The notes under the pieces were generated by a model. The model was not told the DNA's origin. It searched no databases and saw only the letters and a program-made list of their open reading frames with translations. The translations under genes were made by a program, and so were the position numbers. A stretch of 64,000 nucleotides of DNA from Methylocystis sp. (GTDB lineage Bacteria > Pseudomonadota > Alphaproteobacteria > Rhizobiales > Beijerinckiaceae), in NCBI RefSeq assembly GCF_021731785.1, contig NZ_JAKFWS010000034.1, positions 1-64,000 of the forward strand. The letters run 5' to 3'. Of the stretch, positions 17,205 to 28,054 are shown piece by piece. The stretch's first letter is position 1, and the number at the start of each line of letters is the position of its first letter.

Positions 17205-17309
17205 GGCGCTCTCGCCTCCGAATCTTCGTCACCAAACTGTCACACGCCGCTTCGGGGCACATAACCGGGCAAACCCTAGCTGTAAAGCGCCGAAACGCGG
17301 CGGACGCGA

Positions 17310-18056
17310 TTATCTGGGATGCCGTTGCGTTTTGTTCCAGGCGACGGCGTCTTCCTCGGAAAGAGACGCGCTTGCGTCCCTTGGCGCGAATTTGCGCGGC
17401 AGCAGCTCCCTGAGCCGCACCCGGATCTGGCGGGGCGCGCGGCTGACGCTCACCAGATCGGAGCCGCTAAAAACAAACGCGCCATTCTGTACAACGACGA
17501 CGTCGCCGGTCCGCAACGTCGGGTCCTTCCGAGACAGCCGCAGGTAATAGTCATGAGACGCGGCCGGGTCGGTGCAAGAGCAACCCGCCGTCTGTTTGTC
17601 ACGAAAGCTGAATGCGACCGGCAGCGCCGAATAGCGATCCCCTTTGGCGTTGCGCGCCTGCTCGATGCTTTCGCCCTCATAGAGCTGGACGCGCGCCGAC
17701 GGACAGGCGAGTTCGCACGACTGCTGGCCGGAGATCAGCGAAGACTTGATCAATGGAAAATAATAGCCGTCGCAGGCCCGCACACAGTAGCCGCCGCCCG
17801 ACATCGAATCCGCTTCTGCGAGGACCGCAGCCGGCTTGTCATAGCCAATCGAGGCTTTCGACGGCCGAGGCCTCGGACGCTGGCGCGGATGGATCACGCG
17901 CCAGGAGCGGCGCGACGGGTACGCCGAAGGCGTATCCGGTCCGAACAGAAAATCTAAAAAATCGCCCTGCGCCAAAGTGTCGAGCGGCGAAATGAAGGCG
18001 ACTCCCAAAGCCAGCGCGCCGGCAAGTCGTTTCGCACCCTGGCGGTTGAGCCGCAT
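17310..18056 (-). CDS. DUF2865 family secreted protein
   Basis: The 248-residue protein has an N-terminal signal segment (GAKRLAGALALGVAFISPLDTLAQ) and the DUF2865 core: YCVRACDGYYFPL, QQSCELACPSARVQLYEG and TAGCSCTDPA. Six conserved cysteines would form disulfides in the periplasm. A basic Arg/Pro stretch precedes the core. Function is unknown; the family is nearly restricted to Hyphomicrobiales, which supports the host assignment. It is a single gene, 29 bases before a tRNA. Confidence 0.85.
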   Translation of the reverse strand: MRLNRQGAKRLAGALALGVAFISPLDTLAQGDFLDFLFGPDTPSAYPSRRSWRVIHPRQRPRPRPSKASIGYDKPAAVLAEADSMSGGGYCVRACDGYYFPLIKSSLISGQQSCELACPSARVQLYEGESIEQARNAKGDRYSALPVAFSFRDKQTAGCSCTDPAASHDYYLRLSRKDPTLRTGDVVVVQNGAFVFSGSDLVSVSRAPRQIRVRLRELLPRKFAPRDASASLSEEDAVAWNKTQRHPR

Positions 18057-18085
18057 CGGCCTGTCCTCGTCGACTTAACTTCGAC

Positions 18086-18162
18086 TGGCGACCCCGGCAG
18101 GATTCGAACCTGCGACCTACTGCTTCGAAGGCAGTTGCTCTATCCGGCTGAGCTACGGAGCC
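18086..18162 (-). tRNA. tRNA-Arg (anticodon TCG)
   Basis: The minus strand folds as a 77-base tRNA: acceptor GGCTCCG pairing with CGGGGTC through two G-U pairs, anticodon stem ACTGC/GCAGT around loop CTTCGAA (anticodon TCG), T arm GCAGG-TTCGAAT-CCTGC, discriminator G and an encoded CCA. It reads CGN arginine codons. It is nearly identical to the neighbouring tRNA-Arg(TCT), differing in the anticodon and the acceptor stem. Confidence 0.92.
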
Positions 18163-18243
18163 GTCGACGGCGCAGCTTACGCCGCCCACCGTATCACCAC
18201 GGTGAATGCGGCGCCAGACGACGCTCGACAGGAGAGTCATATA

Positions 18244-18320
18244 TGGCGACCCCGGCAGGATTCGAACCTGCGACCTACTGCTTAGAAGGCAGTTGCTCTA
18301 TCCGGCTGAGCTACGGGGCC
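18244..18320 (-). tRNA. tRNA-Arg (anticodon TCT)
   Basis: This 77-base tRNA has acceptor GGCCCCG, anticodon loop CTTCTAA (anticodon TCT, reading AGA/AGG), the same T arm as its neighbour and an encoded CCA. The 81-base gap between the two tRNAs has no gene, and they probably share a transcript. The near identity suggests duplication followed by an anticodon change. Confidence 0.93.
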
Positions 18321-18328
18321 GAAGGAAC

Positions 18329-18637
18329 TCAATGCGTCCAGAGTCCGATGCGGCTGGTTTTGAAATTATCTGAATAGGATACGCCGCGCCGCGCGGCGAG
18401 ATTGGGCCTCGGCTCTTCGACGCGATAGGCGAGGCCGTTGCGCTCCGCGTAGGCGATCGCTTCCTCCTTGGTCGCGAAATTGAGCCGCACCTGCTGGCGC
18501 ATATCGCCCGAACTCGTCCAGCCCATCAGCGGCTCGATGCTGCGCGGGAGCTCCGGCTCAAAGTCGAGGCGCCACATGTCGGACCCGGGGCCGGACTGAG
18601 TGGCGCTCGGCGCGGGGAGATAGATTCGTGCGGTCAT
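18329..18637 (-). CDS. NDUFS4-like complex I accessory subunit
   Basis: The 102-residue protein matches the 'ETC complex I subunit conserved region' family, homologous to the mitochondrial 18-kDa NDUFS4 subunit. Marks are MTARIYLPAPSATQSG, WRLDFEPELPRSIEPLMGWTSSGDM and LNFATKEEAIAYAERNGL. It would bind the peripheral arm of NADH dehydrogenase at the quinone module. It is downstream of where tRNA-Pro would lie without element 1, so the island separates two neighbours. Confidence 0.93.
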   Translation of the reverse strand: MTARIYLPAPSATQSGPGSDMWRLDFEPELPRSIEPLMGWTSSGDMRQQVRLNFATKEEAIAYAERNGLAYRVEEPRPNLAARRGVSYSDNFKTSRIGLWTH

Positions 18638-18700
18638 ATGGCCTCGTTGTTGGAGCTGCGCGCGAAGGCGCTTTGTGACAGAGCGCGGCGGCGTTCGCGC

Positions 18701-18717
18701 TGGTCGGGGCAGCAGGA
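18701..18717. repeat. attL of element 1
   Basis: This 17-base sequence is identical to the 3' end of tRNA-Pro at 26725-26741. It lies 64 bases upstream of the NDUFS4-like start, so removing the island would join tRNA-Pro directly to that gene. Confidence 0.9.
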
Positions 18718-18778
18718 CGGCAAACTAGTGCCGCATCTGCCTGAAAACACATTGAAACCGCCACCGCTAATTGCCGCC

Positions 18779-18804
18779 TGTCCGCCATTCCGTCCGCCAT
18801 TCCG
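18779..18804. repeat. left arm-type integrase sites (two copies)
   Basis: Two adjacent copies of a 12-base unit (GTCCGCCATTCC, starting at 18780 and 18792) lie 60-90 bases inside attL. Related copies occur at the other end of the island (26579-26599). Paired short repeats near both att sites are the normal binding sites for the N-terminal domain of tyrosine integrases. Confidence 0.6.
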
Positions 18805-18901
18805 TAAAGAACGGTAACGGCCGGCTGCGAACACAGATAACACAAAAAATCCTCGCGCGAGGCATGTCGAGGATGCCGGACGGCCCGTTGCACAGTGAAA
18901 C

Positions 18902-18937
18902 GAAAACGCCCCGCGCTTACATCCAGCGTCGGGGCGT
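18902..18937 (-). terminator. terminator of the leftward operon of element 1
   Basis: On the minus strand ACGCCCCG (18937-18930) pairs with CGGGGCGT (18913-18906) and is followed by a TTTT tract (18905-18902). It would stop leftward transcripts of the island before they reach attL and the chromosomal NDUFS4-like gene. The rest of 18718-19037 shows no convincing gene. Confidence 0.6.
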
Positions 18938-19037
18938 CTCTTGGCGGCGGCAGGGTCCGGCGACTAATATGGAGGATCAAGCCGTCCCGAATCGCGCTCG
19001 CTTAGGCGCGCGCCACGCAATCCCTTGGGGTAACGAT

Positions 19038-19256
19038 ATGAAAAATAATTTTAAAATTCTGCGCCACGACGTCCCGGCTGGGGGATTTGGGCGCGCACTG
19101 ACCTCTACTGAAGTTAAGGCGTTGCGCGCTTGCGGCGTGACAGTCCCGCGCGACGCGCGAGTGATCCAAAATCGCGCACCTCATTTGGGCGTCATGTATC
19201 GGCCGCTAGATGCGGGCTATTCCAACACAGGAATTTTACTTGAAACACGGGAATGA
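19038..19256 (+). CDS. hypothetical protein, element 1
   Basis: This possible gene encodes 72 residues beginning MKNNFKILRHDVPAGGFGRALTSTEVKALRACG. Its A/T-rich start differs from the GC-rich shadow frames around it, which argues that it may be real. The frame stays open upstream to 18771, but the upstream part looks like untranslated sequence containing the arm sites. The ribosome binding site is weak (TTGGGG). It would be the only rightward gene on the island. No family is recognised. Confidence 0.4.
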   Translation: MKNNFKILRHDVPAGGFGRALTSTEVKALRACGVTVPRDARVIQNRAPHLGVMYRPLDAGYSNTGILLETRE

Positions 19257-19372
19257 TCCTTTCGGCAGGGGACTCGTCGACTAGGGGAACTCACGTCGGA
19301 TCGGCGCCGAGGATGCCCATCCGTGGTCGGGGCGATCACTGGCGACGGCATGGATCGGCCTGTGCGCGCGCT

Positions 19373-19606
19373 TCAATTCATCGCCGCGCGGCGTTCTTCC
19401 TCGGCTTCTCTTTCGAGGATAGCAGTCAGCTTTTTCATAAAATCGAGCGCGAAGTCGTAACCCGCCGTCGAGACAAGCGCCGCGGCGCCGCCATGCACAA
19501 ATTTCATCGCGAGGCCGCGCGTTTGATCGGCAGTCGCACATGCCGCGCACTGCGAGAGCACTAAGTCTACTATTCGCTTGGTTTCATCTTTTTCGGCGAG
19601 CGTCAT
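19373..19606 (-). CDS. hypothetical protein, element 1
   Basis: The 77-residue helical protein (MTLAEKDETKRIVDLVLSQC, then a C-terminal EREAEEERRAAMN) contains CAAC and is rich in charged residues. Its ATG overlaps the small-terminase stop (ATGA), so the two are translationally coupled. No family is recognised; the position directly after a small terminase suggests a packaging or helper-interaction role. Its start region GCAAATGACGCT equals part of the inverted repeat at 21885-21979. Confidence 0.6.
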   Translation of the reverse strand: MTLAEKDETKRIVDLVLSQCAACATADQTRGLAMKFVHGGAAALVSTAGYDFALDFMKKLTAILEREAEEERRAAMN

Positions 19607-20079
19607 TTGCCTTCGGCCTCCCCGCCGTCAGCCCCGAGAGCGTCGGCGGCTTCGTGGAGCGCGTCGCGGATCGCGGAATCGATCGCCAGGATGTCATGTT
19701 TCGACAGATGCGGGAGTAGCTGCGCAATGTCGGAGGCGAGCGCCAACATACGCGCCCTAATCGATGACAAAACGTCGCTCCATTCGGCCTCGACTTCTGT
19801 CGCAAGCAAATATTCGCCGCGCGTTATGGCGTTCTTTAGTTCAACGGCATCCTTTTGCGCATTCGCCAAATCGGTGCGAGCCTGCGTTAATGACGAACCG
19901 GCGCGGCCGGCGGCCTGCTCGCGATAATGCCCGAATAGGGACTGAATTGCCTGCGGATGGGGATAAAATCCACGGCGAGATTTTTTTATTATTTTTCGCT
20001 GCTCATGTTGCCCTAGAGCTTGCACGGTAATTCCGACCATTTTTGCCAGTTCGGCCGTCTTTATTTCGCCCGCTGCCAA
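19603..20079 (-). CDS. Nu1-like terminase small subunit
   Basis: The 158-residue protein has an N-terminal helix-turn-helix (IKTAELAKMVGITVQALGQHEQRKII) and the typical Nu1 continuation: a linker, LANAQKDAVELKNAITRGEYLLATEVEAEW, then the helical block SSIRARMLALASDIAQLLPHL. Such subunits recognise the packaging site and recruit a large terminase. None is encoded here, which fits a satellite that redirects a helper's packaging motor. I chose TTG 20079: AAGGAG lies eight bases upstream, whereas GTG 20088 overlaps that site. Confidence 0.75.
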   Translation of the reverse strand: MAAGEIKTAELAKMVGITVQALGQHEQRKIIKKSRRGFYPHPQAIQSLFGHYREQAAGRAGSSLTQARTDLANAQKDAVELKNAITRGEYLLATEVEAEWSDVLSSIRARMLALASDIAQLLPHLSKHDILAIDSAIRDALHEAADALGADGGEAEGK

Positions 20080-20231
20080 GGATTTCACTCCTTATTGATG
20101 GGAATTAAACCCCATTACATAAATTCTGTGTAGGTCTCTCCCCCGGGCCCCGTGCCCCCTCGATGGCAAAAAAACCCCCAGAAGGACCCGGTCGCCCAAG
20201 GGCGGCTGGCGAGCGGCAGCGGTGACGCGGC
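20080..20231. other. intergenic region with G-tracts, candidate packaging site
   Basis: The gap before the small terminase holds, on the minus strand, a GGGGG-TTTTTTT block followed by GGGGGCACGGGGCCCGGGGG (20134-20175 region) and then AT-rich sequence with GGGGTTTAATTCCC. Small terminases often bind cos or pac sites next to their own gene. No coding frame here looks real. The packaging role is a guess from position. Confidence 0.3.
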
Positions 20232-20570
20232 TTACGAAGCGGCGCGCCGCAAGATGCGCAGCTTGCCCGAGCGCTCCGCCAGCGCGAAGGCGACGAAGTC
20301 CGTCTCCGATAGAAACTCTTGCTGCAGATCGCTGCGGTTCCGAAACTCTGCGGCGAGTTGCTCTCGCGTCGTCGCATAGCTTGGGATGCTTGGCGCGGCT
20401 GCCGTTGCGTGTTCTTTGCCTTCGGCGACGCGGCGGCAATGGCGTCCGCGTCCGTAGCTTTCGGTGAACGCCAATTGCGACTCAGTCGGCCATCGGTCGA
20501 AGCCTTGCGGCGCTCCCTCGCCTAGCAGTCCGGCACGCGCGCCGGCTCTACTCGCTTGTTCAACATTCAT
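20232..20570 (-). CDS. hypothetical protein, element 1
   Basis: The 112-residue protein has a strong ribosome binding site (AAGGAGAC) before ATG 20570. Its C-terminal 45 residues (TREQLAAEFRNRSDLQQEF, DFVAFALAERSGKLRIL) recall, from memory, a short tail found in some phage prohead protease or scaffold proteins. That similarity is weak. The N-terminal half is low in pattern. It lies between the unknown 20663 gene and the terminase. It could be a helper-capsid-interaction factor. Confidence 0.6.
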   Translation of the reverse strand: MNVEQASRAGARAGLLGEGAPQGFDRWPTESQLAFTESYGRGRHCRRVAEGKEHATAAAPSIPSYATTREQLAAEFRNRSDLQQEFLSETDFVAFALAERSGKLRILRRAAS

Positions 20571-20662
20571 TTTGTCGTCTCCTTAGTTAGTGTGGGCGCG
20601 TCGCTCTGGATTGAAACGACGCGCCCGGCCGGCTGCGGTGTTGCGGAACCGCCGCCGGAACT

Positions 20663-21418
20663 TCACGACGCCTCGGCGTCGCCAGCGCGTAACTCCTGCG
20701 CGCGGCGTTTCAGCGGCTCGACGATGAGCGTTCGGGCTGTGTCGGCCCCCGAAAGAATGACGGCCTCTTCGCCGACGAGGCCAGCGCAGCGCGGCAGCAA
20801 TAATTCGCCGATTTTCGTGTGGATGCTCAGCGCGCGCTCGACGCCAGCGCCATGAGCCATGAGCGCCGGGTTTTGCTTCCGCATTTCGAATGCGGCCGGA
20901 AGCGCATCGTGAATGGCGGCGGCTAGAATTATTCGCGCGAGAGATTCAGGGGTTGCCGGCTGCGGCAGCGTGCTCGCGTCGCAAAATACCTTCAAGCCGC
21001 TTTCCGGCGGGATCGATCTGGCGAGAGCGGCGAAGGCTTCCGCGACAGGCGCGAGCGCCGTTTCCAAGTTTTTCGTGGCCGGCCCGATCGCCGTGGCTGC
21101 GGCCTCAAGCTCGGCGGCCTTACGTGACCTATCGGCGGAGTCGCGCGCTGCCTCGATTCGCTCGATTAATTCGAGTTCGGCGAGCTCCAGCCTTTCCAGT
21201 CGAATTTGCGCGAGGTTTGCGGCGGCGTCGAGTTGCGCAATGTCGGCGTCGGCGGCGTCCGAGAGCAGCATTTCGGCGCGACGCTGGCCGTGATTTTCAA
21301 CGATGCCGGCGACGGTTTTGTGCTCGGCGCGCAGACGGGCGAGGTTTGCTTCCATTTCCGCGATTGCCGCTGCGGGCGACGACTTCTTTGGCGGCTGGAT
21401 AAAACTGAAAACGCCCAT
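20663..21418 (-). CDS. hypothetical coiled-coil protein, element 1
   Basis: The 251-residue protein starts MGVFSFIQPPKKSSP and continues with a long Ala/Glu/Arg-rich coiled coil (about residues 15-130: IAEMEANLARLRAEHKTVAG, LELAELELIERIEAARD). The C-terminal half is helical without a known motif. Structural or scaffold proteins of phages often look like this, but no family can be named. It is in the leftward operon, with 92 bases before the next gene. Confidence 0.65.
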   Translation of the reverse strand: MGVFSFIQPPKKSSPAAAIAEMEANLARLRAEHKTVAGIVENHGQRRAEMLLSDAADADIAQLDAAANLAQIRLERLELAELELIERIEAARDSADRSRKAAELEAAATAIGPATKNLETALAPVAEAFAALARSIPPESGLKVFCDASTLPQPATPESLARIILAAAIHDALPAAFEMRKQNPALMAHGAGVERALSIHTKIGELLLPRCAGLVGEEAVILSGADTARTLIVEPLKRRAQELRAGDAEAS

Positions 21419-21454
21419 TTGTTCCCCGCTCGTTTCTGCCAGTGATTTTGAGAA

Positions 21455-21826
21455 TCACATGCCGCGCGTTGAAATTGGAAGCGCGAAAAATTTCAATTTG
21501 GCGAGGTCGGAAATCCGGCGCGCGCCGATCGGCGCACCGCCGCGACTGCTGCGCAAAATTCGATGCCACGCGCGACGCTTCGAAGGCGCGCTATCCGCAA
21601 GGGAGGCGAGTGCATGTTCGCGCCGCCAGCCATTGCCCGCGTAAGAACGCAAGTCGACGGCGAGCGCCGACGCGCGCGTCCACAGCTCACCCTCATAAAG
21701 CGCCAATCCGGATTCGATCGCGTCCGTCCGCTCAGCAGCCTCAGCCGTGGCGAGCGCAGCGCGAAGCTCTTCGATCGCTAGCTCTTGCGCAGCTAGCTCG
21801 CGGCGAATTTCGTCGACGGGCGTCAC
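21455..21826 (-). CDS. hypothetical protein, element 1
   Basis: The 123-residue protein begins at GTG 21826 with a short coiled coil (EIRRELAAQELAIEELRAALATAEAAE) and ends with a basic segment (SKRRAWHRILRSSRG). No family is recognised. It is followed by the coiled-coil gene and preceded by the inverted repeat that may be the replication origin of the island. Confidence 0.55.
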   Translation of the reverse strand: MTPVDEIRRELAAQELAIEELRAALATAEAAERTDAIESGLALYEGELWTRASALAVDLRSYAGNGWRREHALASLADSAPSKRRAWHRILRSSRGGAPIGARRISDLAKLKFFALPISTRGM

Positions 21827-21884
21827 GCGCGGCCTCGCGGCGGGGCGAGCGTGAGAAATGCCGGATTTCCGGCGGTTTCCGTGA

Positions 21885-21979
21885 AAACATGACGCAAATG
21901 ACGCTGGATCGCATATCCACCGTCACGCGCGCGCGCGCGATACGCCCTAATCCCAGAGAGCGTCATTTGCGTCATGTTT
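21885..21979. repeat. 21-bp perfect inverted repeat of ATGACGC units, candidate origin
   Basis: The left arm (21885-21905) and right arm (21959-21979) are perfect reverse complements separated by 53 bases. Each arm contains two direct copies of ATGACGC (in the left arm ATGACGC-AA-ATGACGC), giving four iteron-like units. The right arm overlaps the stop codon of the D5/P4-type helicase gene. Such replicons often carry iterons next to the replication gene. The intervening segment has a GC-alternating tract (CGCGCGCGCGCG). Confidence 0.6.
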
Positions 21980-23345
21980 CGACATCCCGATAGGTCGGGG
22001 TATTCAGGCGCAAGCCGAAAAAGCCTTGGCCAGTCATGCGTTTATGGCGAACAAAGCCCCTCGTTTCGAGATTATCGGCGAAGCGCTTTTGCGGCCCAAC
22101 AAACTCCCCGGCGCGTTCCGCCCAGCCGCTCCAAGAGGCGAATAGATCGGCGAGCGACTCCCAAGCTCGCCCGTCCCGTTCGGCCTTGTCGTCAATCCAT
22201 GCGGCGATGGCGTCTTCGGCTTCGAGATAGGCGGCCGTCGCATCGCGCACGGCCTGCGGTGGCTTCAGTCCTTCGCGCTGCCATTCGCGGCAACCTTCGA
22301 TCATCCATTGCAGGATGGCCGGCCACTCGGCTTTGAGCTTTTCCTGTAGCTCTTCGTCGCGCCGTTCCGGCGGTATTGTTACGGTGAAGGGGATAAGGTG
22401 GAAGCGACGGCGGATTGCTTCGTCCACTGAACGCAAGCCCGGCTTGTGATTGCCGGCAATGAAAAGTTTGAACTGCGGGACAAACTCGAAAAAGTCTTGT
22501 CTCATGAAGCGCGCCGAAACCTTGTCGCCACCCGTCAGTGTTTTGATTTTCGACTCGGCCCAGCGTCTTCCCTCTTCGGTCTCGATAGCTGTGACGAGGC
22601 GCGCGCCGAGCAATCCGGCGAGGTCGGTCGGATGGCGGTCCGTGTTAGTCGCGGTGAAGGTCTCTATAGGCGCGGTTTTGTGATAGTGACCGCCAAGTAT
22701 ATCGGCGACGGTTTTAAGCAAAACTGACTTGCCATTGCCCCCAGTCCCATATCCGAAGAACAGCGCGTGCTCGCGGGTGACGCCGGTGAGCGCGTAGCCG
22801 CAGACGCGCCACAGATAGGCTTGAAGGTCGAGGTCGCCGGCGGTGATTTCGTCGAGGAACTGAAGCCAGCGCGGGCACTCGCCGCCTGGCGAGACGGCGG
22901 TGATTTTCGTGCAATAGTCTTCGGGCCGCGCCAGTCGCTGCTCGCCGTTGCGTAGGTCTATGACGCCGCGCGGCGCGTTCAAGAGCCAAGGGTTGGCGTC
23001 CCATTGATCTATGGTCGCCGCGATGCGCCTATCGGACTTTGCAAGCCGTTCGACTGCGGCAACGGTTTTCGCGCTTGCAATGACGCTGGCGATTTTTGGT
23101 TTGTTGCACTCGGTCGCGGCTCCGCGACATACGGCGCGCGCCATATCGAATGCGCGGAGTGTATCGTCGAATCGCCAATGCGTCCCGCGCCACGAAAGCC
23201 ACTGTCCCCATTTGGCGACGTAACGAAGGTCGCCGGCGTGCTTGTCGACGAAGCGCAGCGCGAGCGCATCGTCGCTATATGCTGGCGGGCGCGGCTCAAT
23301 GACTTCGACTGTCTCGATTTTGGCGTGCTGATTCACCAAGCGCAC
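21972..23345 (-). CDS. phage/plasmid primase, P4-type D5 helicase
   Basis: The 457-residue protein is a superfamily 3 helicase of the D5/P4 kind used for self-directed replication. It has a D5 N-terminal region (WLLNAPRGVIDLRNGEQR), Walker A GYGTGGNGKS at 198-207, FTATNTDRHPTDLAGLLGAR, the TGGDKVSARFM block near 270 and KLFIAGNHKP (sensor region), then an SF3 C-terminal helical part. It lacks a primase domain, which the upstream TOPRIM gene may supply. GTG 23345 overlaps that gene by 13 bases. It probably unwinds the origin candidate located at its own 3' end. Confidence 0.92.
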   Translation of the reverse strand: MRLVNQHAKIETVEVIEPRPPAYSDDALALRFVDKHAGDLRYVAKWGQWLSWRGTHWRFDDTLRAFDMARAVCRGAATECNKPKIASVIASAKTVAAVERLAKSDRRIAATIDQWDANPWLLNAPRGVIDLRNGEQRLARPEDYCTKITAVSPGGECPRWLQFLDEITAGDLDLQAYLWRVCGYALTGVTREHALFFGYGTGGNGKSVLLKTVADILGGHYHKTAPIETFTATNTDRHPTDLAGLLGARLVTAIETEEGRRWAESKIKTLTGGDKVSARFMRQDFFEFVPQFKLFIAGNHKPGLRSVDEAIRRRFHLIPFTVTIPPERRDEELQEKLKAEWPAILQWMIEGCREWQREGLKPPQAVRDATAAYLEAEDAIAAWIDDKAERDGRAWESLADLFASWSGWAERAGEFVGPQKRFADNLETRGFVRHKRMTGQGFFGLRLNTPTYRDVET

Positions 23346-24004
23346 TCCTGAGTGAGCGCGCCGAGCGCGTCGTTAAAGTCTTGGCCGGGCGACAAAGGCC
23401 GATGGACGATGACGCGGCGTCGGCGGTGCGCCTCGATCGTTTTATTGACTGCGGTCGCGCCAGCTTCGTCAGCATCGGCGAAAATGTGCAGCTCGCGCAC
23501 GTCGTCAGGAATGGTGACGCTGTGCATTCGCGCCGCGCCAAGGACGCACCACACGGGCACGCCGAAGAGTTCCATAGCGCTAAGGCCGGTTTCGATTCCT
23601 TCCGAAAGCCCGAGCGCCTCGCCGGCGGATCCGAGCCTCACGGCGCCGTCGTGCATGCGGCCAAAGGTCTTGCGCGGAAAGCGCACCTGCGCTTTGCGGT
23701 CGCCGCGCGGATCGATCATCGTGACTTGCACGGCGGTGATGCGTCTGTCGCCGGCCTGTAGCGCCGCGCAAATGGCGGGCAGATAGATGCGCCCCGCTAT
23801 GTGCTCATAAGCCGGGAGGTAGCGCAGCGAAGGCGGCGGCTCTGTCGTGATACCGCGCGCCTGCAGATAGTGCTCGGCGACGGTCCCTATGATTGGCTCG
23901 GCGCTGCGCCAGAGCGCCAGCGCGTCGGGGTCTGGCTCGATTGGTGGCGGTTGCGGCGGGCGAAGCGGGCGAAGCGATCCACCTGTCGAGAACAGCGCCG
24001 TCAT
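23333..24004 (-). CDS. TOPRIM-domain primase-like protein
   Basis: The 223-residue protein has a middle/N-terminal region seen in phage primases (AEHYLQARGITTEPPPSLRYLP and RKTFGRMHDGAVRLG) and a TOPRIM domain with Glu135 in LSEGIETGLSAMELFG and the DxD pair Asp177/Asp179 in IFADADEAG. No zinc-binding N-terminal domain is present. With the adjacent helicase it forms a split version of the P4 alpha replication protein. ATG 24004 overlaps the previous stop (ATGA). Confidence 0.9.
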   Translation of the reverse strand: MTALFSTGGSLRPLRPPQPPPIEPDPDALALWRSAEPIIGTVAEHYLQARGITTEPPPSLRYLPAYEHIAGRIYLPAICAALQAGDRRITAVQVTMIDPRGDRKAQVRFPRKTFGRMHDGAVRLGSAGEALGLSEGIETGLSAMELFGVPVWCVLGAARMHSVTIPDDVRELHIFADADEAGATAVNKTIEAHRRRRVIVHRPLSPGQDFNDALGALTQECAW

Positions 24005-24378
24005 CGCCGGCCTCGCCGATATTCGCGAGCCGCTTGCGCGATCAATTCCGGCCCCGGCCCGGGCTGCGGCGCTAGGCTGCGATATGCGGCGACGCCTTCA
24101 ATGACGGTCGCACGCGCCTGTCGCAGAGAAAGTTCGACAACGTGAAGGTTTTCGGCAGACGCGCCCGCAACAAGCGCCGCGCCGGCTATGACAAGGCCGT
24201 CGCCCAGCTCCGCGAGATAATCGAGGCGCAGCAAGCGCGCGTCGCGCTCGGGGCTTGGCAGTGAAGCTTGTGGGCTGCCTTGGCGCGCGGTAGTCTCGGG
24301 AACATTCGCCGCCACAGCGATGCATTCCCGAGCCCGGCCCGCGTCAGCCCGCGTGGCCGGGTTCGATGTTTGGGACAT
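24001..24378 (-). CDS. hypothetical protein, element 1
   Basis: The 125-residue protein has a disordered N-terminus, a hydrophobic-helical centre (LAELGDGLVIAGAALVAGASAENLHVVEL) and a Pro/Gly segment (APQPGPGPELIAQ) before a basic end. Six bases separate it from the AlpA-like gene and it overlaps the primase gene, so it belongs to the replication operon. No family is recognised. Confidence 0.6.
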   Translation of the reverse strand: MSQTSNPATRADAGRARECIAVAANVPETTARQGSPQASLPSPERDARLLRLDYLAELGDGLVIAGAALVAGASAENLHVVELSLRQARATVIEGVAAYRSLAPQPGPGPELIAQAAREYRRGRR

Positions 24379-24384
24379 GGCGCG

Positions 24385-24606
24385 TCACGCGAACTCGGCT
24401 TCGCGGGCCGGCAGTGGCAGGCCGGCGATATACCTTTTCGCGATAGGTCCGCGGATGACTGTCTTTGCGCCTCTCTTTTCGACGAGCACGCGCCCGGCGG
24501 CCACGTCGGCATAGAACTTTGTGCGGCTGGTATTCGCCAACACAAGAAGCTCGGGAACCGAAAGGTTTCCGAATTCAAGACGGTCTTTCAGGCTAAGCTC
24601 GGTCAC
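24385..24606 (-). CDS. AlpA/excisionase-like helix-turn-helix protein
   Basis: The 73-residue protein has a winged-helix pattern typical of AlpA and excisionases: LSVPELLVLANTSRTKFYADVAAGRVLVEKRG, with the recognition helix SRTKFYADV and wing GAKTVI. I chose GTG 24606, which has CCGGAG eight bases upstream; the longer frame to 24768 would run through the operator palindromes. In satellites AlpA activates integrase/excision and replication genes. It is probably the first gene of the replication operon controlled by the two palindromes. Confidence 0.7.
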   Translation of the reverse strand: MTELSLKDRLEFGNLSVPELLVLANTSRTKFYADVAAGRVLVEKRGAKTVIRGPIAKRYIAGLPLPAREAEFA

Positions 24607-24687
24607 GTTTTTCGCTCCGGTTTCATTGAACCAGTGCGAACATGTGAGGAAAGCTTTCAGTAAACAATATAGATCAGGCGAATTAGC

Positions 24688-24739
24688 GTCAGCTCTTATA
24701 ATAGCTGACAAAATAGCGTCAGCTCTTGTAATAGCTGAC
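24688..24739. promoter_or_regulatory. two tandem 22-bp palindromic operators
   Basis: GTCAGCT-N8-AGCTGAC occurs at 24688-24709 and again at 24718-24739. The centres are 30 bases apart, close to three helical turns, so two dimers could bind on one face of DNA. They lie 80-130 bases upstream of the AlpA-like start and overlap the 3' end of the 24719 gene. This is the expected architecture of the control site of an integrated element. Confidence 0.75.
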
Positions 24740-25408
24740 GCCTCCGTTCTTCCTAATACGCCCCGCAATCGCGCTATCCTTAAGCGGTTTACACTCGGCG
24801 GCCTCCATGTCCGCAGCGACGTTAGGTTCGATCTTTCGTGCGAGGGCGCGCGGGCTATATTTTTGGTCCGAACGGCGCAATTCCGCGTTCGCGTGCCTCT
24901 CGATCGATTCTTCGGCGACGGCGCTCGCTTTATCCCTCGCTGGAGCCCTCGCCTTCCGCATGATCGCGCCCTGCCGCTTGCCCTTTTCTTTTTTGTAGGC
25001 GTCGATTATCGAACTGCGCGCAGTTATCGAACTAATCGAACTAGAAATGCGCTCGGCCTGCTCTTCTTTGAGAGGTTCGCCATACTGTCCTACTAAACAG
25101 GCAGCCAAAAGCGCCCGCGCAATAATAAATCTGTCCCTAATGTGAAGATCGTCGAGCACGATCAAACATGACTTAATCGCATGCTTGGAGCGACGAAGCT
25201 CCTTTATCTCGTCGTCAGTCAAATCTCCCAGACGTAAAGCGTCATCAACTGTGGCGCTCAGCGAATTTGCAAGATGCCGTCCGTCTAAAAGTTCATAATA
25301 GGCGTCAATGTCTTGTCGGCGTTGCTTGTTTGCGGGCGATGATTTAGGCGTCACAAACTTTCCGCCAAAAATATCTCGCATCACGAAGAAGTCTCTTCGA
25401 TTATTCAT
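24719..25408 (-). CDS. hypothetical protein, element 1
   Basis: The 229-residue charged protein begins MNNRRDFFVMRDIFGGKF and overlaps the integrase stop by 8 bases, so it is coupled to integrase translation. The region is richer in A/T than its neighbours. A helical middle (LRRSKHAIKSCLIVLDDLHIRDRFIIARALLAACLVGQYGEPLK) is followed by a basic segment (KKEKGKRQGAIMRKARAPARDK). No family is recognised; a repressor or replication-control role is a guess. Its stop codon lies in the second operator palindrome. Confidence 0.65.
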   Translation of the reverse strand: MNNRRDFFVMRDIFGGKFVTPKSSPANKQRRQDIDAYYELLDGRHLANSLSATVDDALRLGDLTDDEIKELRRSKHAIKSCLIVLDDLHIRDRFIIARALLAACLVGQYGEPLKEEQAERISSSISSITARSSIIDAYKKEKGKRQGAIMRKARAPARDKASAVAEESIERHANAELRRSDQKYSPRALARKIEPNVAADMEAAECKPLKDSAIAGRIRKNGGVSYYKS

Positions 25409-26576
25409 CGCTTTTCGCCCCGCAGGCTTGCCCGCAATAAATTGCCCACTGGTTCATGATGACACGGCGCTTGGCGATGGCCGTGCGCCGCCTATAGGCG
25501 AGCTCAACGTCATTTCCCGTTTTATGCGCCAGCGCCGCCTCCGTCAGATCACGAGCGTGTTCGGTTTCGTCTCCGCAAAAATCACGAAACGTCGAACGAA
25601 AGCCGTGAACGGTCGCGTCGCGTGCGCCGAGACGAGCGAGAACCTTGGCCATGGCGATATGGGAGAGCGGCTTTCCGCGGATTCGGCCTGGAAAGACAAA
25701 TCCGCACTTGTCTCGACGCCGAGACATTTCGTCGAGAATTTCGACGCAGCGCGCGGGCAGCGGGACATAGTGAACGCGCCCACCCTTCATCCGCGACGCC
25801 GGAATCGTCCACAGCGCTTCTGACAGATCGAACTCGCTCCAGCGCGCGCCGATGACTTCGCCCGAGCGGGCGGCCGTTAAAATGCAAAATTCGAGCGCTC
25901 GGGCGGCGACACCGGGCGCAACCGCAAGGCGGCTGTAAAATTGCGGCGCGAGCTCATAGGCGAGCGCGGCGTGGTGGCCTGCCTTGGACTTGTCAGGCTT
26001 TGGGAGCAGGTGTTCGAGGTGCCCCTTCCAGCGCGCCGGATTTTCGCCATGGCGCAGCCCATGGGCTGAGGCGTAGTCGAGAACGGCCTCGATTTTCCCC
26101 CTGATTCTGTCCGCGGTTTTCCATTTGCTCAGCCAGAGCGGCTTAATGATCCCCAGCACGGCGGCCGTGTCGATGTCAGCTACCGCCCTACCGCGAATCG
26201 GCGCCATATCGCGCGTGAGCGCCAGCCGCGTCATTTCCCTGTATTTGGGATTGCCGTATTCGCCTTTTTTGGCCTCGAAGAAGGCGTCGGCGGCGTCACC
26301 GAACGACACGGCGTCGGCTCGGGCAGTCTTGCGCCGCTCGATCGGATTGAATCCCGACTTGACGAGTTGGCGCGCCTCTAGCGCCTTCTGGCGGGCTTCC
26401 GCGAGCGGAACGTCGACAAGGTTGCCAAGCCCCATCTCATGCCGCTTGCCGCGTGTCTGGAAACGAAAGAACCAATAGCGCGACAGCGCCGTCGAAACGC
26501 GAAGGTAGAGCCCGAGCCCGTCGCCATATTCGCCGGGGCCGGCGCGCGCCGCTTTCTGAGCGCTGAGCTTTTGCAT
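25401..26576 (-). CDS. int: tyrosine recombinase integrase of element 1
   Basis: The 391-residue integrase has an N-terminal arm-binding DUF4102 domain (PGEYGDGLGLYLRVSTALSR), a core-binding domain, and the catalytic set: TAARSGEVIGARW (Arg), HGFRSTFRDFCGD (His-x-x-Arg), ALAHKTGNDVELAYRR (His and the nucleophile Tyr). This P4-like group targets tRNA 3' ends. The gene lies 150 bases from the tRNA-Pro att site, and the right arm-type repeats sit just before its start, so the protein could repress its own synthesis. Confidence 0.95.
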   Translation of the reverse strand: MQKLSAQKAARAGPGEYGDGLGLYLRVSTALSRYWFFRFQTRGKRHEMGLGNLVDVPLAEARQKALEARQLVKSGFNPIERRKTARADAVSFGDAADAFFEAKKGEYGNPKYREMTRLALTRDMAPIRGRAVADIDTAAVLGIIKPLWLSKWKTADRIRGKIEAVLDYASAHGLRHGENPARWKGHLEHLLPKPDKSKAGHHAALAYELAPQFYSRLAVAPGVAARALEFCILTAARSGEVIGARWSEFDLSEALWTIPASRMKGGRVHYVPLPARCVEILDEMSRRRDKCGFVFPGRIRGKPLSHIAMAKVLARLGARDATVHGFRSTFRDFCGDETEHARDLTEAALAHKTGNDVELAYRRRTAIAKRRVIMNQWAIYCGQACGAKSDE

Positions 26577-26578
26577 CT

Positions 26579-26599
26579 GTCCGCCATTTTATCCGCCAC
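26579..26599. repeat. right arm-type integrase sites (two copies)
   Basis: GTCCGCCATTTT (from 26579) and ATCCGCCACTAT (from 26591) match the two GTCCGCCATTCC copies near attL in orientation and 12-base period. They directly precede the integrase start codon. Confidence 0.6.
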
Positions 26600-26654
26600 T
26601 ATGTTACGAACATACGTGAACAAAGGCGAACAAGCAAGAGCAGCGGCGGAAATG

Positions 26655-26680
26655 AAAAAGCCCCGGAAATACGGGGCTTT
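26655..26680 (-). terminator. terminator between tRNA-Pro and integrase
   Basis: AAAGCCCCG (26657-26665) and CGGGGCTTT (26672-26680) form a perfect 9-bp stem with a six-base loop. On the minus strand the stem runs into TTTTT. It would end the tRNA-Pro transcript and insulate the integrase from it. It lies inside the island, so the element supplies the terminator for its target gene. Confidence 0.75.
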
Positions 26681-26724
26681 CTGTGCGTTTCTGTGGGATA
26701 AATCAGGGGCTTGCTAGAGGGCTT

Positions 26725-26801
26725 TGGTCGGGGCAGCAGGATTCGAACCTGCGACCTGAAGTACCCAAAACTTCCGCGCTACCAGGCTGCGCCATACCCC
26801 G
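26725..26801 (-). tRNA. tRNA-Pro (anticodon TGG), attR of element 1
   Basis: The 77-base tRNA has acceptor CGGGGTA pairing with TGCCCCG, anticodon stem GAAGT/ACTTC around TTTGGGT (anticodon TGG), T arm GCAGG-TTCGAAT-CCTGC, discriminator A and encoded CCA. Its last 17 bases are duplicated at 18701-18717, so integration restored the tRNA. The gap 26802-26991 holds no feature I can support. Confidence 0.94.
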
Positions 26802-26991
26802 CCGGACAGGCCGCCCTACGGCGGCCCTGCCCTCGCTCGAAATTCGCTACCACGCAAGCCCGCCCCTCACAAGGGAATGCGACTGGAGCGCACCTCGCGA
26901 ATAAGCCGAACCTGGCTTCTCACGTAGAGCGCGCGCCAAATTTTTGGGATCGATCACGTTGTACGTCTCTCGGCGACCAACGCAGCGTGAT

Positions 26992-27444
26992 CTATTGGTT
27001 AAACATGCGGTGCCGCACCTGGTCACCCGGCGCAAGCGAGATTTGCCGCGCCGCGCCGGCATTGAGCTCCAGCACCGCATAAGCTGGCGCGGGCGAGCTT
27101 ATGATCCGCTCGGACAGCGGCTCCGCATCGGCCGCGACGCCCACCACCCGCCCGTCGCGCCCGATAAAAACCATGTCGAGCGCAAGGTAAGTGTTCTTCA
27201 TCCACATCGAGACTGGCCGCTCGACCTTGAAGTCGAACAGCATCCCACGATCGGCCGCCATCGACTTGCGAAACATCAGCCCGCGTGCGCGCGTCTTGGG
27301 CGTGTCGGCGATTTCGACCTTGAACTCATGTTCGCCGGTCGCCGTCACGATGCGCGCGACGTCGCCCGGCGGCTCGGCCCACGCGACTGTCGCTGCAAAC
27401 AGCGCCAGAAAAGCGATCAGTAAGGAGAAGGTATGCGCTTTCAT
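26992..27444 (-). CDS. DUF192 family secreted protein
   Basis: The 150-residue protein has a signal peptide (MKAHTFSLLIAFLALFAATVAWA) and the DUF192 core: HEFKVEIADTPKTRARGLMFRKSM, GMLFDF, SMWMKNTYLALDMVFI and the closing VLELNAGAA. The family is widespread and secreted; its function is unknown. ATG 27444 follows TTGGAG; the longer frame to 27513 has no such support. It is probably co-transcribed with the cold-shock gene 40 bases upstream. Confidence 0.9.
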   Translation of the reverse strand: MKAHTFSLLIAFLALFAATVAWAEPPGDVARIVTATGEHEFKVEIADTPKTRARGLMFRKSMAADRGMLFDFKVERPVSMWMKNTYLALDMVFIGRDGRVVGVAADAEPLSERIISSPAPAYAVLELNAGAARQISLAPGDQVRHRMFNQ

Positions 27445-27484
27445 TCGGAAGCGCTCCAAAGGGCGTTGCGCAGCATCGACGTCT

Positions 27485-28054
27485 TCAGTGCGACGGGGCG
27501 CTTTTTGCCTCAAGCGGACGCACCTCGGTCGCCATCAGTCCCTTCGGCCCGCCGCCATAACGCACAAGGACGCTCTCGCCGGGCTTAAGTTCGGTCATGC
27601 CGAAGCGGCGCACCGTTTCCATGTGCAGAAAAATGTCTTCAGTGCCTTCGCCTCGCGTAAGGAAGCCGAACCCCTTCACGCGGTTGAACCATTTAACGAT
27701 AGCGATCTCATAGCCGCTCGTCGGCGTGACCTGAACATGCGTGCGCCCGGCGCACGACTGCGACGGATGGACGGCTGTCGTTTCGTCCATCGCAATGACG
27801 CGAAACACCTGCATGCCCTTGGCGCGCTTCTGCGCCTCGCAAACGACGCGCGCGCCTTCGAAAGCAGTTTGGAGGCCGCTGCGGCGGAGAATGGTGACAT
27901 GGAGGAGAATGTCGGCCGAACCGTCGTCAGGCACCACGAAACCATAGCCCTTGGCGACATCGAACCATTTAATCTGTCCAGCGATTTCAACCAATTCAAG
28001 ACCGGACTCATCCGATTCAGTCGCGCTCGTCGTCAAATCATCTTGAAAAGTCAT
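27485..28054 (-). CDS. double cold-shock-domain protein
   Basis: The 189-residue protein has two cold-shock domains joined by a linker: IKWFDVAKGYGFVVPD...ILLHVTILRRSG and VKWFNRVKGFGFLTRG...IFLHMETVRRFG. Each has the RNP1-like KGYGFV/KGFGFL and RNP2-like LLHV/FLHM motifs for single-stranded nucleic acid binding. This twofold form is typical of Hyphomicrobiales. ATG 28054 was chosen over an upstream TTG. It probably acts as an RNA chaperone. Confidence 0.92.
   Translation of the reverse strand: MTFQDDLTTSATESDESGLELVEIAGQIKWFDVAKGYGFVVPDDGSADILLHVTILRRSGLQTAFEGARVVCEAQKRAKGMQVFRVIAMDETTAVHPSQSCAGRTHVQVTPTSGYEIAIVKWFNRVKGFGFLTRGEGTEDIFLHMETVRRFGMTELKPGESVLVRYGGGPKGLMATEVRPLEAKSAPSH

Follow-up and report, generated by a model that had tools for sequence, protein, structure and literature searches.

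A probable phage satellite at a tRNA-Pro gene of Methylocystis sp. and the elements that share its gene module

The stretch of DNA analyzed here (the window) comprises positions 1 to 64,000 of contig NZ_JAKFWS010000034.1 of Methylocystis sp. (assembly GCF_021731785.1) and harbors, at positions 18701-26741, the element that is the subject of this study. It corresponds to a precise insertion of 8,024 bp at the 3' end of a tRNA-Pro(TGG) gene, is bounded by an exact 17-bp repeat (18701-18717 and 26725-26741), and has a G+C content of 60.8% vs 63.7% in the remaining window. Twelve island open reading frames (ORFs; 11 on the minus strand, one on the plus strand) were scanned against Pfam and PHROGs and partly against PADLOC and NCBIfam, p125 lying outside the NCBIfam scan. 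The genes that could be named as well as p123, p251, p112 and p77 are all encoded on the minus strand; p125 and p229 are orphans. The features are as follows, with C20 and C28 denoting two sister elements of the same genome and L023-L025 loci used for comparison:

18701..18717, no strand: distal att core (17 bp), exact repeat of 26725-26741
18778..18812, no strand: candidate left arm-type integrase sites, TCCGCCA at 18781 and 18793, 12 bp apart
19373..19606, minus strand: p77, no assigned family, downstream of terS; homologues in C20 and C28
19603..20088, minus strand: terminase small subunit (TerS), phrog_57 at 2e-24
20232..20570, minus strand: p112, module gene; homologues in Methylocystis sp. 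L43 and in sister elements
20663..21418, minus strand: p251, coiled-coil-like, module gene and class marker; five copies in the genome, p251-like genes in other genera
21455..21826, minus strand: p123, module gene; homologues in four sister elements and in L023-L025
21885..21979, no strand: perfect 21-nt inverted repeat with TGACGC iterations and a 53-nt spacer between helicase and p123, candidate origin or operator
21972..23345, minus strand: D5/P4-family helicase, Pfam D5_N at 1.2e-32 and NCBIfam TIGR01613 (P4-family primase_Cterm) at 2.6e-88, over cut-off
23333..24004, minus strand: Toprim primase half, Pfam DUF7146 at 6e-25 and Toprim_3 at 2.7e-16
24001..24378, minus strand: p125, orphan, no family match in Pfam or PHROGs
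24385..24606, minus strand: small DNA-binding-like protein at the AlpA position, proposed GTG start, without supporting profile match
24681..24739, no strand: two tandem palindromes TCAGCT-N8-AGCTGA upstream of the AlpA-position gene, candidate operator
24719..25408, minus strand: p229, orphan, no family match above noise
25401..26576, minus strand: tyrosine integrase, three Pfam domains at 4.7e-20, 1e-18 and 1.7e-12, phrog_1 at 4e-44
26577..26611, no strand: candidate right arm-type integrase sites, TCCGCCA at 26580 and 26592
26725..26741, no strand: att core in the 3' end of tRNA-Pro(TGG), as given by the repeat and the tRNA call (26725-26801, minus strand)

The borders were examined by joining the two flanks (17300-18717 and 26742-27600) into an empty-site query, which was aligned to the loci of 29 relatives obtained from a right-flank search of 39 genus genomes (38 of 39 matched). 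In 19 of the 29 loci the flank alignment is continuous over the junction and the core occurs once; in six the flanks matched as pieces only 164-350 bp apart, and in four the left flank was not found in the joined-flank alignment. Because the repeat is exact, one copy coincides with the tRNA end and the sites in relatives are unbroken with a single core, the element ends are correct far beyond chance. An initial annotation of the sequence had described 17-bp att repeats at tRNA-Pro and had proposed to look for the island at this site in related genomes: the repeats proved exact, with the right copy forming the tRNA 3' end, and 25 of the 29 relatives' loci carry the site without the island, the other four being those without a left-flank match. 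A larger prophage holding the unit was seen in none of the loci examined. The sequence TCCGCCA occurs six times in the island, and four of these copies form two 12-bp-spaced pairs just inside either end, where they would serve as arm sites of the integrase.

The profile matches bear out the tRNA-targeting integrase, the split Toprim primase with its P4/D5 helicase and the small terminase that had initially been proposed. The integrase is 51% identical to that of an element in Methylocystis sp. L43. TerS is recognized by PHROGs; Pfam offered only MerR at 0.057, NCBIfam gave no match, and a search of solved structures returned one chain at 0.11. Among the 12 ORFs neither capsid, portal, large terminase (TerL), tail nor lysis families were found by profile search; the sole 'tail' match is that of p251 to a tape-measure profile in PHROGs (E=0.043), which we take as a match between coiled coils. 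A search of solved structures with p251 yielded ribosomal S18 at 0.99 and three coiled-coil proteins, of which M protein scored best (0.0087). The six unnamed genes have no Pfam family up to E=1 except for a coiled-coil match at 0.16, and no PHROG above noise; PADLOC yielded just two matches, at 0.011 and 0.033, with the integrase outside that scan. The protein at the AlpA position exists in two possible forms: For the 127-aa form Pfam gives nothing up to E=1 and the sole PHROGs matches are to two families of unknown function (0.19 and 0.27), and for the 73-aa form, which would start at GTG 24606 and has a 42% homologue in Methylocystis sp. L43 (locus L024), NCBIfam gives nothing up to 0.01. 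Rfam detects three tRNAs and nothing else. A promoter scan gave one hit vs a shuffled mean of 1.9 and a terminator scan 18 vs 11.3; neither was used as evidence. A terminator-like, stem-forming sequence of about 50 nt at 18897-18952 has similar copies (82-85% identity) on five further contigs.

The same genome contains five copies of p251, namely in the window element (C12) and in four sister elements, C20, C28, C16 and C11. All five carry p123 and p251 and have a p112-like gene at the same position, the equivalence in C20 resting on a 104-aa ORF that matches C28 and C16. p123 is 41-52% identical in all four sisters and in L023-L025, and p112 is 77% identical in Methylocystis sp. L43, 59% in C11, 42% over 60 aa in C28 and 37% over 63 aa in C16. 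Beyond this module the elements end in one of two ways: C20 and C28 end in TerS and p77, as does C12, and C16 and C11 end in a tape-measure protein of about 690 aa. p77 is 79% identical in C20 (dN/dS 0.16) and 94% over 64 aa in C28. The tape measure of C11 matches Pfam TMP_2 at 1.4e-17, and 13 of its 16 matched PHROG families are tape measures, the other three being unknown; the two proteins, both full-length (L012:7556-9643 and L011:6594-8666), are 86.5% identical with a dN/dS of 0.17. At the codon level, dN/dS values of 0.16-0.56 across all nine gene comparisons made show purifying selection on module and packaging genes. At a threshold of E 1e-4 the sister loci yield no match to the C12 integrase, Toprim or D5 gene, and no repeat resembling the 21-nt inverted repeat was found in the sister regions searched. 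The occurrence of sisters that share the p123-p251-p112 module but not the integrase and replication genes, and that end in either TerS and p77 or a tape measure, is new. It also refines the initial listing of six genes without a recognized family: those at 19373, 20232, 20663 and 21455 are homologous to sister genes, and those at 24001 and 24719 (p125 and p229) still have no homologue in the loci compared.

C11 is the sister with both att copies in view (49 bp, tRNA-Gly; span of about 16.5 kb). Its scanned ORFs comprise an integrase, SSB, a Holliday-junction resolvase, a primase and a helicase-primase that we label RepA-like, and no capsid, portal, TerL or other tail gene is among them. Upstream of p123 it carries a TerS-like gene that matches phrog_57 at 4.3e-8 over residues 1-124 and Pfam only through weak HTH matches; the C16 counterpart consists of two overlapping ORFs, and the relative in L43 matches only excisionase profiles (about 3e-4). 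C20 and C28 run off their contigs, with their integrases beyond view. Att repeats were sought and not found for C16 and for the loci L072, L024 and L077, and L087 has a 14-bp repeat only.

Between C12 and C28, TerS is a mosaic. Relative to C12, TerS of C20 is 84.5% identical throughout, that of C28 63% over 142 aa, and that of C76, a further element of the genome described below, 31%. Between C12 and C28 only six of the first 60 alignment columns are identical vs 39 of 40 in columns 121-160. Small terminases of the Nu1 type recognize DNA with their N-terminus and contact the large subunit with their C-terminus. Replacement of the N-terminal domain with retention of the C-terminal half is as expected if the two are satellites with different packaging sites and one helper lineage. 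Among phages, TerS relatives were found only in Roseobacter phages (five of 50,697 records, 32-34% identity); one viral contig (L094) holds a 50% relative in a stretch without clear phage structure by eye.

On these grounds we conclude that the element is most probably an integrated phage satellite built on the plan of the phage-inducible chromosomal islands (PICIs). This reading is supported by the exact att repeat with its empty site, the integrase, the Toprim and D5/P4-family genes, a TerS without recognized particle genes, the paired arm-type sites, the sister elements, the TerS swap and the dN/dS values below 1, and it agrees with the initial proposal of a satellite.

The p251 profile was further searched in 248 genomes of the family, and the loci were gene-called with a purpose-written script. 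Ten of the 248 match: the host, G203 from the same genus, and eight weak ones (E 4.6e-11 to 1.9e-5). Within a few genes downstream of the p251-like gene, five of the eight carry a tape measure in PHROGs (L072, L073, L075, L078 and L079), two a TerS (L076 and L077), and one, L074, a tail fibre together with a head protease that stands alone. Head-maturation proteases that match only the front part of protease-capsid profiles, that is, without a capsid half, lie beside or near the p251-like gene at the following positions:

L072:12119-12841: head-maturation protease
L074:9379-9960: head-maturation protease
L078:8684-9454: head-maturation protease
L079:4275-5165: head-maturation protease

At the level of the order the search found two of 397 genomes; only five candidates were scored per genome, and the figure is not used as a rate. 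One locus, L087 from another family of the order, combines a p251-like gene with TerS, fragments of a tape measure and, judged by eye, an integrase. Within the genus, the module of L43 (L024) is preceded by a gene related to that of C16, with no tape measure or second TerS seen after p112; in L023 and L025, p251 is followed by a protein that we label M41-like from its HEAGH motif, for which PHROGs gave nothing in L023 or L075 and Pfam no more than a weak metallopeptidase match in L075. No p251 relatives were found in IMG/VR viral contigs. Proteasome-like proteins, Ntn-hydrolase-looking by eye, occur near tape measures at L079:5162-5794 and L087:15221-15934.

Tentatively, these loci might be taken further: The p251 module could mark an undescribed class of satellites in Rhizobiales, a possibility to which we give rather less than even weight, in which a p251-like coiled-coil gene, located next to genes for integration and replication, is combined with a swapped hijacking tool, either TerS, a lone head-maturation protease or a complete tape measure, and p251 acts as the common assembly hub. 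In such a class, TerS would steal packaging, the lone protease would rework helper heads, and the tape measure would rebuild helper tails at the satellite's length.

The genome-wide searches for a helper covered two families of TerL and one each of portal and tail tube, and used a sequence as well as a profile to look for tape measures. TerL of phrog_2, a permissive profile that also responds in 11 of 14 controls, was found on C92, C24 and C54, GpA TerL only on C76, PF04860 portals only on C24 (two) and C54, and phrog_24 tape measures only on C16 and C11; the PF06199 tail tube is absent from the genome, its control responding in 2 of 14, Caulobacter included. C76 is a 13-kb element at tRNA-Val that resembles the capsid-forming PICIs (cfPICIs):

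L069:1806-14886: C76, 47-bp att repeat, integrase, capsid (protease part by eye), lambda-type portal, GpA TerL, TerS and RepA-like protein

Its lambda-type portal came from a locus scan, that portal family lying outside the genome-wide searches. C76 and C54 have head genes, and no tail gene was recognized in the stretches seen, in which part of the ORFs were scanned. By megablast, island DNA has no match in phage records. A phage external to this genome is the probable helper.

Other phage-like loci of the genome were seen in passing. The locus L028:6775-15515 adjoins tRNA-Pro(cgg), reaches to the contig end and holds genes for TerL, capsid and portal, with HNH and protease assigned by eye; no tail gene was recognized in the part seen. 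L026:2720-11884 contains an integrase end, a Rep-like protein, a serine resolvase (by eye), along with a large terminase; four of its proteins were scanned, and the three besides the terminase have no PHROG match. C24 is a gene-transfer-agent-like cluster (L027:2204-10008) with a partly duplicated portal and two inserted, similar proteins of about 170 aa; it looks incomplete, with a single small gene between capsid and NlpC-like gene where the expected tail genes are missing (gene names by eye and recall). Gene-transfer-agent capsids hold about 4-5 kb, and both this capacity and the lack of the expected tail genes led us to reject a gene transfer agent as the vehicle of the 8-kb element.

Several observations weigh against the satellite reading or its extension to a class. 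The genome-wide searches detected no complete prophage in the host. The AlpA label has no supporting profile hit in either form of the protein, and this part of the initial annotation could not be upheld. Since integrase, Toprim and D5 are not common to the sisters, the p123-p251-p112 module could be a travelling cassette. The TerS identity of the gene upstream of p123 in C11 and C16 is not certain, given its N-terminal match only and its excisionase-like relative in L43. In L075, genes for a portal and a protease-capsid precede the p251-like gene by a few kb, and this unit may be capsid-bearing or consist of two tandem elements. Finally, the weak p251-like matches share a coiled coil, and their homology rests partly on gene order.

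Three other explanations were weighed. The element might be what is left of a formerly complete prophage after the loss of its genes for head, tail and lysis, given that a phage-type integrase, a primase and TerS are normal in prophages too; however, both ends and att are intact, the genes are open and compact, the sisters keep the same partial module with dN/dS below 1, and the rest of such a prophage is in no locus examined, which makes this origin improbable. A complete prophage set, with head, tail and lysis genes in one unit, is not present among the 12 ORFs scanned. We hold it to be similarly improbable that the element is a self-replicating integrative element that captured a phage TerS and uses it with the module as a defence against phages, with TerS, or in the sisters the tape measure, being a decoy that jams packaging or tail assembly without any satellite transfer. 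Passages of PMC11364771 do present satellites and prophages as carriers of tail-assembly inhibitors, but the only PADLOC signals are the two matches mentioned above, and a swap in which half of TerS is retained and the other half replaced is more readily explained by a single partner packaging different DNA than by blocking.

The satellites of the genome might also complement each other in a multipartite manner, with heads from C76 and C54, tape measure from C11 and C16, and TerS from C12, C20 and C28, so that only tail parts come from outside. C76 does combine TerS, TerL, portal and capsid, C11 and C16 do carry tape measures, and the RepA-like protein is 69% identical in C76 and C11; yet the genome has no PF06199 tail tube, and TerS of C12 and C76 are only 31% identical; we regard such sharing as very unlikely.

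If the element is a satellite, it would excise when a tailed helper infects or is induced, and would be replicated by the Toprim/D5 pair, perhaps from the 21-nt inverted repeat. The variable N-terminal domain of TerS would then bind the satellite's own packaging site and its conserved C-terminal half would recruit the helper's large terminase, so that satellite DNA would enter helper heads. A role in particle assembly is probable for the p123-p251-p112 module, which lies next to the packaging gene, and the long coiled-coil-like p251 is a candidate for redirecting helper assembly. Were this true, one methanotrophic alphaproteobacterial genome would carry several phage satellites, and satellites of this kind would hijack packaging, head processing and tail length by interchangeable single genes; the TerS domain swap would offer a direct test of how one helper docking surface is kept while packaging-site recognition changes. 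With tape-measure satellites that lack a capsid, satellite piracy would reach beyond heads to tails.

PICIs follow a plan of a specific-site integrase, a primase/replication module, an AlpA-family regulator and their own TerS, without capsid, portal or TerL. The element shares with them its size, integration at a tRNA end with an empty site in relatives, the integrase, the primase/helicase, its own TerS and the lack of particle genes; it differs in having its main genes all on one strand, a split Toprim/D5 pair, no supported AlpA, the p123-p251-p112 module and an alphaproteobacterial methanotroph as host. P4 carries the capsid and transactivation genes Sid, Psu and Delta and is not known to carry TerS. 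With P4-like satellites the element has in common the P4-family primase/helicase C-terminus (TIGR01613) and tRNA integration, but it possesses TerS, and Sid, Psu and Delta were not found by profiles, which unrelated proteins of like function would escape; on its recognizable genes, membership in the P4 group fails, and with it the initial statement that P4 uses exactly this set. The cfPICI plan is matched by C76, whose TerS is the 31% relative, whereas the window element is without capsid, portal and TerL.

The size and packaging of PICIs are described in sections of PMC11364771. Satellites of E. coli with RepA_N, capsid and putative tape-measure genes and without terminase genes appear in parts of PMC10448857: Like C11 and C16 they have a tape measure and lack most tail genes, but they carry a capsid, whereas C11 has none found and a TerS-like gene, and the window element has no tape measure. 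Tape-measure satellites as such are therefore not new. AH14b, a satellite-like phage of Pseudomonas treated in passages of PMC4936722, resembles the element in being small and in its integrase, AlpA-like regulator (the element's own being without profile support), Toprim primase and lack of structural proteins; it differs by a homologue of tail assembly protein I and by a putative helper, AH14a, in the same strain. PMC11389934 names the known satellite families, and the word 'tape' is absent from its text. In the literature searched, which leaves out most subscription papers, no paper was found on phage satellites of Rhizobiales or on SatelliteFinder in Alphaproteobacteria. Taken by itself, the single island is a variant of the PICI-like satellites; of broader interest are the family of elements that share the module and the domain swap of TerS.

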